NCBI GenBank assembly: GCA_903846015.1
Contig: CAIMZS010000655.1
Coordinates: 1-52,006, forward strand
Reading direction: 5' to 3'
Length of the DNA: 52,006 nucleotides
Origin: an uncultured Anaerolineae bacterium
GTDB taxonomy: Bacteria > Chloroflexota > Anaerolineae > Anaerolineales > Villigracilaceae
The translations under genes and the position numbers were made by a program. Position 1 is the first letter of the stretch. Every line of letters begins with the position of its first letter. Below the pieces are notes generated by a model, which did not search any database, was not told where the DNA came from, and was given only the letters and a program-made list of their open reading frames with translations. Positions 2,913 through 9,773 of the stretch are shown piece after piece.

Positions 2913-3336
2913 GGTGGCATGTCCTTAAGTTATTATCCGGTCTCGCTAAGTGCCTGAGACTGGTCTAATCGGGCAGAAAGATGTTCGCATCGGAATCTGT
3001 AATGGTCAGCAATAGCGCGAACAAAATAAGCATAGTTGCTTGGGTCTCCGTGAACGCTGGTAAGTATAGATGAGTTAACCAGCTTGTGGCTCATCCGCCG
3101 GGATGATTTTGGGTCAGACTGAAGATGGAATTTATCCAGCCGGATTGGAATATTTTTTAAACAGGTTCCATTTGTGACACCCATACTGCCAAAGCATTTT
3201 CTTTCCCATGCATGCTTCCAGCATTGATACGCGCAGATTTTATACTTCTGATCAAATTTTATAGTGGTACTTGCCATCAGTAAATATGAAGTTATACTTA
3301 ATACCTGACATAATCATCATTCTTAAGTTGAAAAAT
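2913..3336. other. Divergent intergenic region between histidine kinase and helicase operon
   Basis: This 424-base stretch separates two divergently transcribed operons. A minus-strand frame at 2933-3277 is open but has no ribosome binding site, an unusual Cys/His/Lys composition and no recognisable domain, so I do not treat it as a gene. The only structured signal seen is the plus-strand promoter at 3271-3298, listed separately. No RNA gene is recognisable. Confidence 0.5.
3271..3298 (+). promoter_or_regulatory. Candidate sigma70-type promoter for the helicase operon
   Basis: A -35 box TTGCCA (3271-3276) and a -10 box TATACT (3293-3298) are separated by 16 bases, each one mismatch from consensus. 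Transcription would start near 3305, about 30 bases before the ATG at 3337. This argues against the in-frame ATG at 3271, which sits on the -35 box. Confidence 0.5.
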
Positions 3337-5151
3337 ATGCCTCCAAGTCTTCCATCCACCCAATCCACTGATATCGAATTGTTGCCCATACCTGAAATGC
3401 TGATAAAAAGCGTCAGTGCCGGGGTTTTTGCCAGCCGCGAATTGTATAACCTGCGCCTGTTGGCCGAACATGCTCTGCTCGTCAGCGGTTTCGATGAGCT
3501 TATTTGTTTGAGCCTGCTCCAGTTTATGCCCTTTGATTACCAGGTGCGCGCGGCTCAAACCATGCTTCGCCGTTTTCGTGGGCGTGGGATGTTGTGTGAT
3601 GAGGTCGGTCTGGGGAAAACCATCGAAGCAGGACTGGTCATCAAGGAATACCTGGCGCGCAATGTGGTCCAACGCATCATGGTAGTGACACCCGCCGCAC
3701 TGGTGGAGCAGTGGCGGGAGGAGCTGGCAACCAAGTTTGGGTTATTCGGTTTTGTCACCACTGCAGACGCTGAGTTCCGCGCCTTAGGAAGCGACGCCTG
3801 GAGCCGCTTTCCTTTGTTGATCGCATCACTTGCCACTGCCCGACGCGCTGAAAATCGCGCCCGCTTGGCCGAAATCCCCTTCGATCTCATTGTGGTGGAT
3901 GAAGCGCACCATCTTAAAAACCGTAACAGCGCCTCGTGGAAGTTTATCAACGAGCTAAAACGCAAATATATCATCCTGCTCACCGCCACTCCGGTGGAAA
4001 ACAACTTGGATGAATTGTACAACCTGATCACCCTGCTCAAGCCTGGCCAGCTTAAGACTCCGCGCGAGTTTCGCAAGCAATTTGTGGTCAGTGGTGATCC
4101 ACGTTTGCCCAAAAATCGAGGTCAACTTCGCGAACTTCTTGGTGACGTAATGGTGCGCCACACTCGCAGCCAGGTTAACATCAAATTACCGCCACGCCAG
4201 GCCAATACTATCCATCTAAACCTTTCCCCCGAGGAAAATAGTTTTTACCAATCTGTCAGTGCTTACATACGTGAACACCTGAAGGGCAGCACCGCCGAAA
4301 CAGATGAAGCTGACCAGGCCACAGAGAAAACGGGCAAGGGTTTGCGCCAGGTGGATCGTTTTGCCCTGCTCACCATCCAACGTGAAATTGGGAGTAATCC
4401 CGCCGCCGCAGAACCGACCCTGCGCTTACTGGCTGGGCGTTTTCAGGATAAGGCCCCTCTTCTGGCATTAGCTGACCAATCTACGCATATCTCCACCTGG
4501 GCCAAAGCGGACGCGCTTGAAAAACTCCTCACCAGTTTGCTTCACGATCCATCAGAAAAGGTCATCATTTTTACCCATTTCCGCCGCACTCTCACGCTGT
4601 TGGCCGAACGCCTGCGGAAAATGGATATTTCGTTGGTGGTCTATCACGGCGAAATGGATACCGCAGCTAAGAACCAGGCTATTGACGATTTTGAGCAGCA
4701 TGCCCAGGTACTGCTCTCCACCGAAGCCGCTGGGGAAGGGCGAAACCTGCAATTTTGTCGCACCCTGATCAACTTCGATATCCCCTGGAACCCCATGCGT
4801 ATCGAGCAGCGCGTAGGGCGTATTCATCGCATCGGCCAAACACGCGAAGTGCGCATTTACAACCTGTCGGCGCGTGGCACAGTCGAAGATTACCTGCTTG
4901 GTATTCTGGATCAAAAGCTCAACATGTTTGAACTGGTTATCGGTGAAATGGATATGATTCTTGGTCAGCTTTCAGACGAACGTGATTTCGAGGCTATCCT
5001 GCTCGACATCTGGTTGGGGGCGCAATCCCAGGATGAACTACAAACCGGTTTCAGAAAACTCGGTGAAACCCTCCTGCAGGCCCGGCAATTGCACCAAAAG
5101 ACGCAGGAATATGATGATGCCTTGTTTGGCGACGATTTCACGGCAGAATAA
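3337..5151 (+). CDS. SNF2/RapA-like superfamily 2 helicase (DNA translocase)
   Basis: The protein is about 604 residues and spans both RecA-like lobes of a SNF2-family ATPase. Motif I is GLGKT near residues 91-95, the DEAH box is at 188-191, motif III is LLTATPVENN, motif V is STEAAGEGRNLQF, and motif VI starts near residue 491 as QRVGRIHRIGQ. The family uses ATP to translocate on double-stranded DNA and displace bound proteins such as RNA polymerase. The N-terminal segment (about 1-70) is short, so there is no separate Tudor or SWIM accessory domain as in RapA or other SNF2 proteins. The start at 3337 is preferred over 3271 because of the promoter position. It is followed after 3 bases by the zinc-finger gene, indicating one transcript. 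Partner genes suggest nucleic-acid processing or defence, which is inference. Confidence 0.93.
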   Translation: MPPSLPSTQSTDIELLPIPEMLIKSVSAGVFASRELYNLRLLAEHALLVSGFDELICLSLLQFMPFDYQVRAAQTMLRRFRGRGMLCDEVGLGKTIEAGLVIKEYLARNVVQRIMVVTPAALVEQWREELATKFGLFGFVTTADAEFRALGSDAWSRFPLLIASLATARRAENRARLAEIPFDLIVVDEAHHLKNRNSASWKFINELKRKYIILLTATPVENNLDELYNLITLLKPGQLKTPREFRKQFVVSGDPRLPKNRGQLRELLGDVMVRHTRSQVNIKLPPRQANTIHLNLSPEENSFYQSVSAYIREHLKGSTAETDEADQATEKTGKGLRQVDRFALLTIQREIGSNPAAAEPTLRLLAGRFQDKAPLLALADQSTHISTWAKADALEKLLTSLLHDPSEKVIIFTHFRRTLTLLAERLRKMDISLVVYHGEMDTAAKNQAIDDFEQHAQVLLSTEAAGEGRNLQFCRTLINFDIPWNPMRIEQRVGRIHRIGQTREVRIYNLSARGTVEDYLLGILDQKLNMFELVIGEMDMILGQLSDERDFEAILLDIWLGAQSQDELQTGFRKLGETLLQARQLHQKTQEYDDALFGDDFTAE

Positions 5152-5154
5152 GCT

Positions 5155-6990
5155 ATGACCCAGGATATCTCGCTCGAAGAATTGGTTCTCGGCTATTGCC
5201 GCCAGGTGGACGGAATTATTGAGCCGCCCGCTTATGGCGCTTATGAAGTACTCCTGCCCGACGATGTCGCTGTGCGTTGGGGGGTAACGCCTCATCTCCG
5301 CATGGCCTTTTTGCCTGAAGCAAAAAATGCTGTTTACATTCATTTCGGACACTCCATCGTGGAAGCCATTGTGGACGAAATCCGTGTGAAAACTGCCAAT
5401 GGCCTATTTTTTATTAACAATGTTCGCCCCGAAAAGCCAAAACTCTACGAAGTCATTGAAAAAGCTATTTCGCTGCTCAATGCCAAGATGTTCCCTATTC
5501 CAGGCGAGCTTGAGAGCATCAATCTGCATCATTATGCGCGCCTTAATTTCAAAATTAGTCTGATTGCGGATGAAAAGCGCGAGTTGATTTTGCCGATGTG
5601 GATGGATTTACAGGCAGGTTTTCCCATTAAAGGAGCCAGTATTGAACGGCTGGCGATTCTTGATCCGGAGAATCAGTATTTGGACACGCCCTCCGCCAGT
5701 TTGCTCTGGAGCAAGGATCCGCCGCTTTCGCAAAAAGCGCTTCATGATCTGATGGAGCGTGCCAGGCTTTTAGCAACTTTCGAATTAGGCGATACGCTGA
5801 CATCCATCCAAAAACGCTTGAAACGGTTCCTTGAACTGGATCGCGCCCGCCTGAATGATTATTACGATGATTTACACAAAGACACCGATCGTCGTTTGCA
5901 AAAAGCGGATGATGATCGCCGCTCAACGTTGGAATCCAAGCTTGCAGCCATAGAAGCTGAGCGCCGGTCCAAACTGGCAGATGTAGAGCAGAAATATCAC
6001 CTGCGGATACAAATGGAACTGGTCAACCTGGCAATCATCGCTCAGCCCAAGCTGGATTTGACTGTTGAAGTTCGCAAACGCGGGGTGACCATTAAACGTC
6101 GCGTTACGTGGGATCCGCTCCTTCATTCTGTGGAGGGGATGGCCTGCGATGTTTGCCATAGGCCGGGTTTATCGCTTATGTTGTGCGAAAACGGCCACCT
6201 GGCACACAGCGAATGCCTCGCGCCGCAATGCGTGGATTGCAAACGCACTTTTTGCCAGAAATGTGCCGCGGAAGTGCAAACCTGTATTGTTTGTGATCGT
6301 CCTGTTTGCATCCACAGCCTTGTCCGGTGTAAAGAATGTGGGCGGGCGACTTGCCAGGAACATACCGGCGCATGCCATGCTGATGCAGGTCAGCCGCGTC
6401 GGGTTTTGACTGAAACGCCCGCCAGTCAATCTGCTGCTTCGAAAACGGGATCAACAGATTCGCCGAAAACGGCCGGCCACGAAACAGGAAAAAGCCCCAG
6501 CCAGAAAACACCGGCAAAACCGAAACCCCAAAAAAACCTGGCGGCCTCAGCCAGGGTGGTTGATAAACCGTCTTCCGAGGTAGTCGGAGACTTTATGGAA
6601 GTTTACTCTGACCCGGGCCAGAAAACGATCCTCGCGTATGTAAAAACTAAAAAGCGCGATGTTGCCACCCGCGAGTGGAGCATGAGTGATGAAGGCCTGG
6701 CTGTGAATTGTTGGTGCGAAAAATCAGATTGTCCTGAACGAGGCATTGTTTATTATCCAATGGCAGCAGATGGGCTGACGGCTCAATTGAATGGGTTAAT
6801 CGAACGCTTTGCCAACGAATATAGCGTGCCTATTAAAAAAATACGTTTTTTCCAGGTGCGCCAGGGACAGCCGTTTGGCGAGATAAAATTAAAGGTGCCA
6901 GCTGACTGGAAAGATCCAGCTACTCTGGATCGTGCCCAGGCCGGATTCGAGGCGCTCAGGACGAGAAGCATGAACAGGAATAGACGATGA
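5155..6990 (+). CDS. Coiled-coil and tandem zinc-finger protein of unknown function
   Basis: I do not recognise a named family for this 611-residue protein. Residues 1 to about 200 are a mixed alpha/beta domain. About 215-290 is a charged coiled coil rich in Arg, Lys, Asp and Glu. Residues 331-407 are a dense Cys/His cluster with repeated CxxC-x4-Cxx(C/H) units (CVDCKRTFCQKC, CIVCDRPVCIH, CKECGRATCQEH), likely binding several zinc ions. About 410-470 is a Ser/Pro/Lys-rich flexible linker. The C-terminal domain carries another small Cys group (C519, C521, C526). The gene begins 3 bases after the helicase and its stop overlaps the next start (ATGA), so it is translationally coupled to both. A nucleic-acid or protein docking subunit for the helicase and nuclease is the simplest inference. 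Confidence 0.85.
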   Translation: MTQDISLEELVLGYCRQVDGIIEPPAYGAYEVLLPDDVAVRWGVTPHLRMAFLPEAKNAVYIHFGHSIVEAIVDEIRVKTANGLFFINNVRPEKPKLYEVIEKAISLLNAKMFPIPGELESINLHHYARLNFKISLIADEKRELILPMWMDLQAGFPIKGASIERLAILDPENQYLDTPSASLLWSKDPPLSQKALHDLMERARLLATFELGDTLTSIQKRLKRFLELDRARLNDYYDDLHKDTDRRLQKADDDRRSTLESKLAAIEAERRSKLADVEQKYHLRIQMELVNLAIIAQPKLDLTVEVRKRGVTIKRRVTWDPLLHSVEGMACDVCHRPGLSLMLCENGHLAHSECLAPQCVDCKRTFCQKCAAEVQTCIVCDRPVCIHSLVRCKECGRATCQEHTGACHADAGQPRRVLTETPASQSAASKTGSTDSPKTAGHETGKSPSQKTPAKPKPQKNLAASARVVDKPSSEVVGDFMEVYSDPGQKTILAYVKTKKRDVATREWSMSDEGLAVNCWCEKSDCPERGIVYYPMAADGLTAQLNGLIERFANEYSVPIKKIRFFQVRQGQPFGEIKLKVPADWKDPATLDRAQAGFEALRTRSMNRNRR

Positions 6991-9773
6991 AGCTTACTTT
7001 TTTGGGGGGCGCGGATGAAGTTGGCGCGAGTGGCATCCTGGTGGAAACCGCCGGGCGGCGCGTGTTGGTGGACTGCGGCATTCGACCTTCGCCTAAAGCA
7101 TATGGCGGATTGGCTCCCGATCAGTTGCCCGATTTGAGCCAGCTCGAAAATGGCTCAGGTAAACTCGATGCTGTGCTCGTTACTCACGCTCATACGGATC
7201 ACACAGGCGCACTTGAACTGGTGTTGGAACGCTACCCAGAAGTTCCGGTGTATGCCACTGCGCCAACTTTGGCGCTGACGCGCGTCTTGCATCAGGATTC
7301 GCGCAGAATCATGCAAAGCCGGTTGGATGAAGAAGGTGAGCTGCCTCTTTTCGATGATGTTGCTGTCCAACGCTTGATGACAGCCATGGTTCCTGTGCCG
7401 TTTAAAACTCGCCTGGCTCTGGCTGATGGTCTGGCTGCCACATATTTCCCTGCCGGGCATATCGCCGGGGCAGCCATGATTGGATTGGAAAGCGCCGAAG
7501 GGAAATTGCTCATTAGCGGCGATATTTCCATATCACCGCAGCGTACAGTGGACGGTGCTCGCCCCCCTGCCTTCCATCCCGATGCTTTTATTGTCGAAAG
7601 TACTTATGGGGGCCGGCTGCATGCCAACCGCGCGGTGCAGGAGCGCAAATTGGTGGAAACTGTTGCCCGTATCACAGCCGCGGGTGGAAAAGTGCTTATC
7701 CCTGCCTTTGCATTGGGCCGCGCCCAGGAAATCCTGCTCATCCTGGCAGAATACCTTCGGCGTGGCGAATTGCCCTCCGTCCCTGTTTGGGCGGATGGCA
7801 TGGTGCGCGCCATCTGCCAGGTTTACCCATCCTTCGGGGATGCCCTGCCGCTAGCCTTGCAGGAACAGGGTGCCCAATTTTTCAATAACAACATCCGCCC
7901 GGTAACATCCAACGACCAACGGAATGCCATTCTCTGGAATCCTGGCCCAGCAGTGATTGTCGCCAGTTCTGGCATGTTGGCGGGTGGTCCATCGCTCAGC
8001 TATGCTCGCGCTCTGGCAGCCAAACCCGAACACGCAATCCTTCTGACGGGTTATCAGGATGAAGAATCGCCCGGTCGCCGCTTGCAGGATCTTCGTGAAC
8101 GAGGTTCCGGCACCATTCGCCTCGGCAGTGAAAAAGTGGATGTGCAATGCCACATTGAATCCTACTCTCTATCTGCCCACGCCGATGAATCCCAGATTAT
8201 CAATTTGACTGAAACACTCGACCCTGAGCATGTTTTCCTGGTTCATGGTGATCTCAATGCCCGCACCAGCCTGGAAAAAGCGCTTAGCTCTCGGCAGCGT
8301 ATCGTTCGTCTGCCCCAGGCTGGACAGACATTTGAACTTAAATTTGAGAGAAGCACTCGCTACATCAAGCCTGACAGCGGTGACCTGCGTTTTCGCCAGG
8401 ATGAACTTAATCGCAAGCGGATTGAGAAAATGGCCGAATTTTCCGATTCGCTCGGGAAATGGTTAATGGTCAAAGGGGATGCCGCCGCCCCTGTTCGTTG
8501 TCTCTCTATCGAAAGCGATCACTTATGGGTCGAGATTGCCCCCGGATTGGAACAGGCAGTCTACCCAGAATCCGTACTCGCTATTTTAGGGCAAGCCGCC
8601 CCTACTGAAGTGGAACTTTCCCCTTTCAAACAGCTTTCAGTTTCATCCACAATCATGGAGCCGAATCAAGCCATCTCCACCGCCAATGGACATTTTCCTC
8701 CTGAAGCGGGCTTGCGCAAGAGTGGTTACCGTCTGGCTGACCATGTGTTGATTCTGACCTTTGACTTTCCCGATTCCGCCCGCCAACAATATGCTGATTC
8801 GATTATTGCACTGGGACAAATCACTGGTTGGCAGGTGGAAGTAACCCCCGAAAGCAACCAGAGCGCTCTTAGCGCTCTCGTCCGTGAGGTTCTGCCGCGA
8901 GACCGGCAAATCATCAAAGGCCCAGCCATTTATCGCGATCAGAAACTCGTGGCAGTGACTATCGCATCCGGCACATTTGCTGTGGAAATGGATGAGTTTC
9001 AAATTTCAAAAATTTGTGATCACTTTAGCCAAATTAGCGGATGGGAATTAAACATTACTGAATCGGAGCAAGCCATCTCAACCTTGAGTCCCGTGGTTTC
9101 CCACGGTCAATATATGGAAATCAATGCTGCCTATACCTTTATCAAGTCAGCATTGGAAGGAAGTACGCTTTACCGTACCAGCCTGAAAGGAAACGAAATC
9201 GTTTTATCTTTTATTTCGCGCCAGGTAGCCGAACGCTATCAGGCTCAAATTGCCGAACTAACCATCCAAACTGGATGGCCCATGATCATTAACCCTCAAC
9301 CCAACCAGGGCGCAATTCTTGAAACTGCACGTAACCTGATTACCAAAGCAGGATATATCATCAGCAAAGGACCAGGAATTCATACAGAAAAAGCCGAAGT
9401 GAGTGTAACTCTGGCTTCTGCACTTTCACCAGAACAAAGAATGGAAATAACCCAATCATTCGAACGGGAAACCGGGTTCCAGTTAAACCTTGCCAGCCTG
9501 CAGCCAGCAACCCAAAGCATCAAACCGCCAACCACCAATCTAAGCATTGTCGAAATTCCAATCAACCGGGTTCGCCTGAACAGTTACCAGCAATCGTTGC
9601 AACTCGACTCGATCAAGTTGGAAAAAGCTATTGAACGAGCCCGGCTAATGGGTATCAATCCGCCCATCCAGGTGCGCCGCACCCGGGATGGTTATATCCT
9701 GAGTGATGGTCTCTATCGCCTGCGTGCCGCCGAAGCTCTTGGGCTGGAGCGCATTCCGGCAGTGGTGGAGTAG
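6987..9773 (+). CDS. Beta-CASP metallo-beta-lactamase nuclease with internal repeats and ParB-like C-terminus
   Basis: This 928-residue protein starts with a metallo-beta-lactamase fold: the metal motif THAHTDH lies at residues 66-72, with later PAGHIAGAAM, ISGDIS, ESTYGG, PAFALGRAQE, the beta-CASP element GMLAGGPSLSYA and SLSAHADE. These features fit the CPSF73/Ysh1-like RNA nuclease family, and family members cut or trim RNA or DNA using two zinc ions. After a linker, residues about 585-840 hold four related units, each a strand-helix-strand ending in tGW/tGF plus a hydrophobic strand (near 587, 653, 736 and 803). Residues 854-928 match a ParB/sulfiredoxin-like domain (IPINRVRLN, then DGYILSDGLYRLRAAEALG). 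The start overlaps the upstream stop by 4 bases. Most beta-CASP proteins are about 450-550 residues, so the extension is unusual. Confidence 0.92.
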   Translation: MKLTFLGGADEVGASGILVETAGRRVLVDCGIRPSPKAYGGLAPDQLPDLSQLENGSGKLDAVLVTHAHTDHTGALELVLERYPEVPVYATAPTLALTRVLHQDSRRIMQSRLDEEGELPLFDDVAVQRLMTAMVPVPFKTRLALADGLAATYFPAGHIAGAAMIGLESAEGKLLISGDISISPQRTVDGARPPAFHPDAFIVESTYGGRLHANRAVQERKLVETVARITAAGGKVLIPAFALGRAQEILLILAEYLRRGELPSVPVWADGMVRAICQVYPSFGDALPLALQEQGAQFFNNNIRPVTSNDQRNAILWNPGPAVIVASSGMLAGGPSLSYARALAAKPEHAILLTGYQDEESPGRRLQDLRERGSGTIRLGSEKVDVQCHIESYSLSAHADESQIINLTETLDPEHVFLVHGDLNARTSLEKALSSRQRIVRLPQAGQTFELKFERSTRYIKPDSGDLRFRQDELNRKRIEKMAEFSDSLGKWLMVKGDAAAPVRCLSIESDHLWVEIAPGLEQAVYPESVLAILGQAAPTEVELSPFKQLSVSSTIMEPNQAISTANGHFPPEAGLRKSGYRLADHVLILTFDFPDSARQQYADSIIALGQITGWQVEVTPESNQSALSALVREVLPRDRQIIKGPAIYRDQKLVAVTIASGTFAVEMDEFQISKICDHFSQISGWELNITESEQAISTLSPVVSHGQYMEINAAYTFIKSALEGSTLYRTSLKGNEIVLSFISRQVAERYQAQIAELTIQTGWPMIINPQPNQGAILETARNLITKAGYIISKGPGIHTEKAEVSVTLASALSPEQRMEITQSFERETGFQLNLASLQPATQSIKPPTTNLSIVEIPINRVRLNSYQQSLQLDSIKLEKAIERARLMGINPPIQVRRTRDGYILSDGLYRLRAAEALGLERIPAVVE

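Follow-up and report, generated by a model that had tools for sequence, protein, structure and literature searches.

The operon at positions 3337–9773 of an Anaerolineae contig raises the question of which of its genes belong together. Three open reading frames on the forward strand encode a SNF2-family translocase, a zinc-finger protein and a beta-CASP protein with a ParB-like tail, and the initial annotation treated them as one system. The window, meaning the whole 52,006-nucleotide stretch analysed, is contig C655 of an assembly of 6.5 Mb in 662 contigs (97% complete, 5.9% contaminated). Its flanks carry one tRNA-Pro and open reading frames that resemble ordinary chromosomal genes by inspection.

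The architecture itself is as described. The SNF2 gene (3337..5151, +; 604 aa; identified by open reading frame with Pfam and equivalog models) is followed after three bases (5152–5154) by the zinc-finger gene (5155..6990, +; 611 aa; open reading frame, alignment and predicted structure), which overlaps the beta-CASP gene (6987..9773, +; 928 aa; open reading frame, Pfam and models) by the four bases ATGA at 6987–6990. The promoter called plausible at the outset fares unevenly: a sigma-70-like match upstream of the operon, TTGCCA-16-TATACT (3271..3298, +), agrees at 10 of 12 positions and is the best promoter-like site within 7.5 kb, but such sites occur in the region at chance level (8 observed against 6.7 expected). 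What does not stand is the reading of the three genes as one fixed system, as the beta-CASP gene adjoins the other two at 2 of 27 loci, the window included. The initial annotation had named dispersal of the homologues as the observation that would count against it; this dispersal is seen for the beta-CASP gene but not for the SNF2 gene, which adjoins the zinc-finger gene at 29 of 29 loci. The proposed unit of three genes was too wide; the stable one consists of the SNF2 and zinc-finger genes, here called the pair.

The SNF2 protein and its constant partner

SNF2 enzymes track along double-stranded DNA and displace bound protein. The window SNF2 protein consists of the helicase core only, with SNF2-rel_dom (144.6 bits) and Helicase_C (89.5 bits) both above the Pfam cut-offs and with Walker A, DEAH and motif VI apparently intact by inspection. 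These domains, and those of the beta-CASP protein, bear out the nucleic-acid-related design first proposed for both. The SNF2 protein scores 260.4 bits against the DrmD equivalog (cut-off 610), 218 against DpdE and 204.9 against RapA (PRK04914, which requires more than 576 bits over the whole protein); because all three scores lie far under the cut-offs, it is assigned to no equivalog. In the PDB, the core matches an archaeal Snf2/Rad54-type helicase best and RapA, the RNA polymerase-associated SNF2 ATPase of E. coli, almost as well; the helicase core is shared with RapA (E = 1.1e-41). RapA has 968 residues, whereas the window protein is far shorter and lacks RapA's flanking domains. The initial annotation was right to set DISARM aside: the core resembles DrmD but scores far too low, and no DISARM family is among the matches listed (25 of 35 PADLOC families) for the 42 other open reading frames of the window. 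None of the three proteins matches a Jet family (for the SNF2 protein, among the best 25 of 66 families).

The zinc-finger protein matches nothing in Pfam above cut-off. Its structure, predicted from 28 sequences at a pLDDT of 84.8 (alignment A3: 27 of the 29 loci described below plus the window), comprises an N-terminal α/β part, a long helical region (aa 193–280; 5731..5994, +), a zinc array and a C-terminal α/β domain, with a low-confidence stretch at residues 418–473 between the last two. The zinc-binding array (aa 331–408; 6145..6378, +), delimited by alignment and inspection, holds ten Cys/His pairs that would make up about five sites. All of its 20 Cys/His residues except H387 are invariant or at least 90% conserved across 28 sequences. 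In the C-terminal domain, the alignment reveals a CxCEKx2C site (aa 519–526; 6709..6732, +) that is invariant in 10 sequences and conserved in 90% or more of 28. Descent of the protein from a split-off C-terminal half of a RapA/DrmD helicase was considered and rejected, as PDB sequence searches gave no credible match and Foldseek with the model found no solved relative, RapA included, better than E 0.16.

Pairing was followed by a pattern scan of genome contigs from 84,980 species with the zinc-finger alignment, which returned 29 loci, all from Chloroflexota groups (the genus Brevefilum among those checked); a single-sequence pattern scan of genome contigs with the zinc-finger protein found no relative. 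Because both scans depend on patterns that are short and degenerate, these 29 loci should be read as a sample. Every one of them has a SNF2 sequence directly upstream of the zinc-finger gene. With start codons picked by script, the junctions are 4-bp overlaps (12 loci), gaps of 2–3 bp (10) or gaps of 10–82 bp (5), and two copies of the pair are broken (L117, frameshifted, and L120). A contig edge cuts the SNF2 gene of L099. Trees of 27 rows (the window and 26 loci, omitting L099, L117 and L120) contain no strongly supported SNF2 group that contradicts a strongly supported zinc-finger group. This concordance and the recurrence of the ATGA junction in a second genus place the operon beyond chance.

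Distant zinc-finger members (~22–36% identity) likewise lie 3′ of a SNF2 gene at L049, L050, L051, L053, L055 and L056; the locus of L052 stops at a contig edge, and L054 has no SNF2 gene within 17 kb. Overall, the pattern suggests that the SNF2–partner pairing is old and strict. It is also patchy: zinc-finger genes occur in 11 of the 152 family genomes, of which some reach a completeness of only 66–85%, and no zinc-finger relative was found in the viral contigs searched. The proteins of L050–L052 have ~345–355 residues and end after one zinc ribbon. Far longer Cys-rich arrays, with many tandem CxxC pairs, are found in the distant SNF2 partners at L055 (250-2214) and L056 (1412-3535).

Some pairs have a further neighbour. 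PRiA4_ORF3 proteins adjoin the pair at L092, L097, L098 and L120. At L097 (6607-8166) and L098 (4146-5597), the PRiA4_ORF3-domain protein ends at the SNF2 start, the overlap being 1 base with an ATG start and 4 with an upstream TTG. Because the two genes meet in this way, the pair in these species may have an extra upstream operon gene. L120 (9533-10660 on contig C24 of G043) is a second, decaying copy, G043 having an intact pair as well; only the last 50 residues of its SNF2 protein are recognisable, and the PRiA4_ORF3 gene lies just upstream.

A probable relation to Bacillus YqhH–YqhG

A SNF2 protein with a companion, like the Chloroflexota pair, also exists in Bacillus as YqhH (HepA) and YqhG, encoded in B. 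subtilis by genes that we take to be directly adjacent. Pfam labels YqhG a 'protein of unknown function'. In B. subtilis, yqhH and yqhG are placed together in a stretch next to sinIR (PMC6123443).

The YqhG profile (PF11079) matches 7 of 28 zinc-finger family members at E up to 0.1, the best match (E 3.2e-4) reaching 20.2 bits against a Pfam gathering score of 25. When ten members were scanned singly, five matched, with the matching segments in similar order on the profile, and the other five did not; the weak similarity lies in the N-terminal half. A six-frame search of 201 Chloroflexota genomes with the profile gave one match at E up to 0.001, located in the zinc-finger homologue of G271. 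The window protein was matched neither in the Pfam scan nor in the six-frame search, which also missed the zinc-finger protein of G014. With one match and these two proteins missed, the profile shows specificity, but its sensitivity only just extends to the family. Such matches make it likely that the zinc-finger family is related to YqhG, although formally below the cut-off. The gene order agrees, a SNF2 gene lying directly beside a YqhG-like gene at 29 of 29 loci. The YqhG profile has 258 positions, whereas most Chloroflexota partners have about 600–840 residues, and the zinc array, the C-terminal domain and the optional third gene are additions in Chloroflexota. The Chloroflexota pair is probably a much enlarged, divergent counterpart of the RapA-like YqhH (HepA) with YqhG. 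The Chloroflexota version gives the YqhG-type partner recognisable nucleic-acid-type features in the form of the zinc array.

Our first choice, held tentatively and close to an even call, is that the SNF2 and zinc-finger genes form a two-gene Chloroflexota module, an accessory rather than a housekeeping translocase that probably acts on transcription complexes, with an optional beta-CASP RNase in a few lineages. The SNF2 protein would serve as a bare translocase core and the zinc-finger protein as its constant partner, a combination suggesting that the partner supplies docking and control. It would provide the surfaces for recognition and tethering that in RapA are part of the protein's own additional domains. 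Acting in a complex, the pair would drive the ATP-dependent removal or remodelling of DNA-bound protein, with stalled RNA polymerase as the best candidate target. RapA is reported to recycle RNA polymerase (PMC8666675, PMC8501970). B. subtilis HepA (YqhH), a Swi2/Snf2 enzyme called poorly characterised, is described as interacting with RNA polymerase and is counted among factors acting on the stalled polymerase (PMC7385302).

That grouping would also suit a DNA repair or replication–transcription conflict factor without a defence role, an alternative that we regard as improbable. B. thuringiensis YqhH is reported to hydrolyse ATP in a DNA-dependent manner and to show helicase activity in vitro, with reduced UV resistance in the knockout, yet the knockout survives slightly better after 60 min of UV and total helicase activity is unchanged (PMC10054049). 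Loss of hepA in B. subtilis does not suppress the lethality of PcrA depletion (PMC7385302), and a repair factor would be expected in more than 11 of 152 family genomes.

The beta-CASP protein and its link to the pair

The third protein begins with a metallo-beta-lactamase/beta-CASP/RMMBL core (aa 1–440; 6987..8306, +; Pfam and alignment). Beta-Casp (86.8 bits), RMMBL (47.4 bits) and ParB_N (31.2 bits) all score above their cut-offs. HAHxDH (67–72), H158, D179, E204, H398 and H420 are invariant in seven beta-CASP sequences and are taken to be the metal-site motifs of the family. By its Beta-Casp and RMMBL domains together with these motifs the window protein belongs to the beta-CASP nucleases, and it is probably an RNA-cutting enzyme. 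Its nearest solved relatives are archaeal aCPSF1/FttA, INTS11 and CPSF73, then type VII Cas14 and bacterial TTHA0252, all of which have the core and the metal-site motifs in common with it. Against the aCPSF1/FttA model TIGR03675 it scores 300.8 bits, well short of the cut-off of 580.2, and the match begins at model position 176. Unlike FttA, the archaeal termination ribonuclease, it has no N-terminal KH pair and carries duplicated repeats and a ParB_N tail at its C-terminus. Three distant proteins (23–29% identity) are the only beta-CASP proteins found in the viral contigs searched.

The repeats (aa 556–840; 8652..9506, +) were found by self-alignment and predicted secondary structure. Their two halves align to each other at E = 2.4e-12, and each is predicted to contain two αββαβ-like units (pLDDT about 57–78, with a dip near 695–708). 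The repeats are possibly KH-like, the αββαβ-like pattern being of low-to-middling confidence; they have no Pfam KH match, and a PDB sequence search with them gave nothing credible. The structure model, built from two sequences (mean pLDDT 44), was used for the repeat region only, and its Foldseek matches had low TM-scores and added little to the sequence result. A ParB_N-like domain (aa 854–927; 9546..9767, +; Pfam cut-off 26.3 bits) ends the protein and matches ParB chains in the PDB (best E 2.3e-6). ParB CTPases combine ParB_N, including a GERR-type CTP-binding motif, with a following HTH domain. The tail does not fit this class: DGLYRLRAA stands in the motif region, and little sequence follows before the C-terminus.

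How firmly this gene is tied to the pair depends on the evidence weighed. Among 26 loci with at least 300 bp downstream of the zinc-finger stop, one (L101, in G024) has a beta-CASP gene there, which with the window gives 2 of 27. Full-length beta-CASP–ParB genes occur in 7 of 152 family genomes; within the family, 2 of the 7 adjoin a pair, as do 2 of 11 SNF2–zinc-finger loci. Three of the seven genomes have the beta-CASP gene and no pair (G008, G046, G420), two others (G001, G459) carry gene and pair on different contigs, and G083, from another family, has a relative in pieces. The two operonic copies fall apart in the beta-CASP tree, so the operonic arrangement either is ancient and has been lost in places or evolved on two occasions. 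All this, with the majority of pairs having no beta-CASP gene, would suit an independent beta-CASP gene that is co-transcribed by chance, only the pair being a system.

We nevertheless judge chance co-transcription unlikely. The ATGA junction of zinc-finger and beta-CASP genes is identical in the window and in a second genus. Of the 7 genomes with beta-CASP, 4 also have the pair, which occurs in 11 of the full 152 (Fisher p = 0.0005, uncorrected for kinship). Two further junctions appear to bear scars of a start: at L102 the 12 bases from an ATG that overlaps the stop codon of the zinc-finger gene are the same as at the beta-CASP start of G008, the start-like scar matching at 9 of 11 bases (random-sequence p = 0.0003), and at L094 the match is 8 of 11 (p = 0.0035), both values having been computed after 12 junctions had been inspected. 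On the zinc-finger tree, L102 and L094 both fall in the group of L101, a placement that the SNF2 tree shows clearly for L094 only. A search for beta-CASP gene-body remnants downstream of the pair at seven loci found none convincing. The same-genome co-occurrence and the two apparent scars argue for a link that is real but looser than that within the pair.

The operon of a few Anaerolineales lineages includes an FttA-like beta-CASP gene; under the accessory-translocase reading, the module would there combine stripping of the complex with cutting of the emerging RNA. FttA takes nascent RNA directly from the polymerase exit channel and then cuts it (PMC11616081), and joint clearance of transcription complexes would fit the encoding of an FttA-type core enzyme with a SNF2 motor in some lineages. 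This makes it possible to test how YqhG serves its SNF2 motor and whether a bacterial β-CASP protein acts together with such a motor on transcription complexes. A literature search, largely of open-access papers, found no system of this composition, nor does one appear in the available part of a BREX survey (PMC12839542). We see here a variant of a known, little-studied pair that takes a three-gene form only rarely.

Lone beta-CASP genes keep other company. A conserved gene of ~175 aa lies closely 3′ of the beta-CASP gene at L087 (7671-8201, G008) and L088 (3269-3793, G001); it was not found near the copies of the window or L101. At L089 (3773-7201, G046), the lone beta-CASP gene is convergent with the gene for a different, 1142-aa SNF2-type protein with 28% identity to the window SNF2 protein.

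Defence genes around the pair

Wadjet (JetABCD) neighbours the pair at 4 of 29 loci, with JetA, JetB and JetC at L096, L097 and L101 and JetA alone, at a contig edge, at L104; PADLOC matches support these assignments. The JetA/B/C probes gave no match in the 15 control windows, at six loci with a beta-CASP gene and no adjacent pair, or in the window, whose genome carries JetA on another contig. JetA occurs in 19 of 152 family genomes, including 7 of the 11 with the pair (one-sided p = 4e-5) and 6 of the 7 with beta-CASP (p = 1e-5), uncorrected for kinship. In some lineages the pair is coupled both to a nuclease of FttA type and to genomes that bear Wadjet. PglZ, a defence gene about as frequent as JetA (21/152), is found in 3 of 11 pair genomes and 3 of 7 beta-CASP genomes (p = 0.18 and 0.06), and PRiA4_ORF3 (29/152) in 8 of 11 and 4 of 7 (p = 8e-5 and 0.03). 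JetA is itself weakly correlated with PglZ (p = 0.03) and PRiA4 (p = 0.01), and genome size or gene-rich assemblies may therefore explain part of the co-occurrence.

Other defence genes are scattered among the loci. At L100 (5466-8336), PsyrT–PsyrA lies directly 3′ of the pair, the PsyrT frame overlapping the zinc-finger stop by four bases; L116 has a HEC-01A-like ATPase and L105 a PglX-like methylase. At E 1e-30, 49 PADLOC families are matched by open reading frames neighbouring the pair and 29 by control frames (25 of the 49 and 25 of the 29 being listed); all frames were called mechanically and are not gene calls. The pair set comes from 22 places (the window and 21 of the 29 loci), with 134 of 143 frames tallied. 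The nine omitted frames, dropped on grounds of size, comprise two above 1300 aa and seven of roughly 700–1190 aa; an exception was made for the 1112-aa JetC of L096, known beforehand, and this favours the pair set. When three of the seven were scanned alone, two had no match and one matched UvrD-type families. The controls are 134 of 196 frames, from 10 of 15 windows in two single-contig genomes (G018, G388). Among 49 frames around five lone beta-CASP genes there are matches to PDC-S01 and to DpdE/ZorD-type SNF2 models, the latter most likely through the 1142-aa protein of L089.

The initial annotation had asked whether homologous operons sit in defence islands, and the answer is divided. Several loci hold known defence genes, but the 42 other frames of the window match kinase-type families (PD-T4-6 and similar) and mads_3 only, among the 25 of 35 PADLOC families listed. 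Wadjet is present at 4 of 29 pair loci and in 0 of 15 control windows; other PADLOC matches occur in controls, lone beta-CASP loci and the window.

The pair might then be a defence module that detects or strips foreign plasmid or phage DNA, its variable neighbours, beta-CASP included, being effectors as in defence islands. We place this on the unlikely side, if not by far. It would account for the patchy distribution of the pair, the Wadjet loci, the PsyrT/PsyrA, HEC-01A-like and PglX-like neighbours, and a co-occurrence with JetA that PglZ does not equal. It sits less well with the surroundings of the window itself, with the PADLOC matches among control frames, with the tracking of PglZ and PRiA4 by JetA in figures uncorrected for kinship, and with the absence of zinc-finger relatives from the viral contigs searched.

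The preferred reading, an accessory translocase on transcription complexes, can take in much of the same evidence. Patchiness, and genomes and loci held in common with Wadjet and other defence genes, suggest foreign or damaged DNA that is being transcribed as its probable target, which would lend the module a protective role. A transcription- or defence-linked role, as raised by the initial annotation, may apply. A more elaborate version, which we consider a long shot, is genome protection resembling the nuclease-driven termination of archaea and eukaryotes: the YqhH/RapA-type translocase and its zinc-finger recognition partner would remove RNA polymerase from foreign DNA, the FttA-like beta-CASP protein, guided by its repeats and ParB-like tail, would destroy the transcript, and the Wadjet SMC alongside would cut the plasmid.

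One more gene recurs in these neighbourhoods. The gene starting MGMFDTVYAELDCPFCG in L101 is conserved and lies near the pair at L101, L097, L095 and L098; it recurs near Wadjet JetA, including at L189 and L191.
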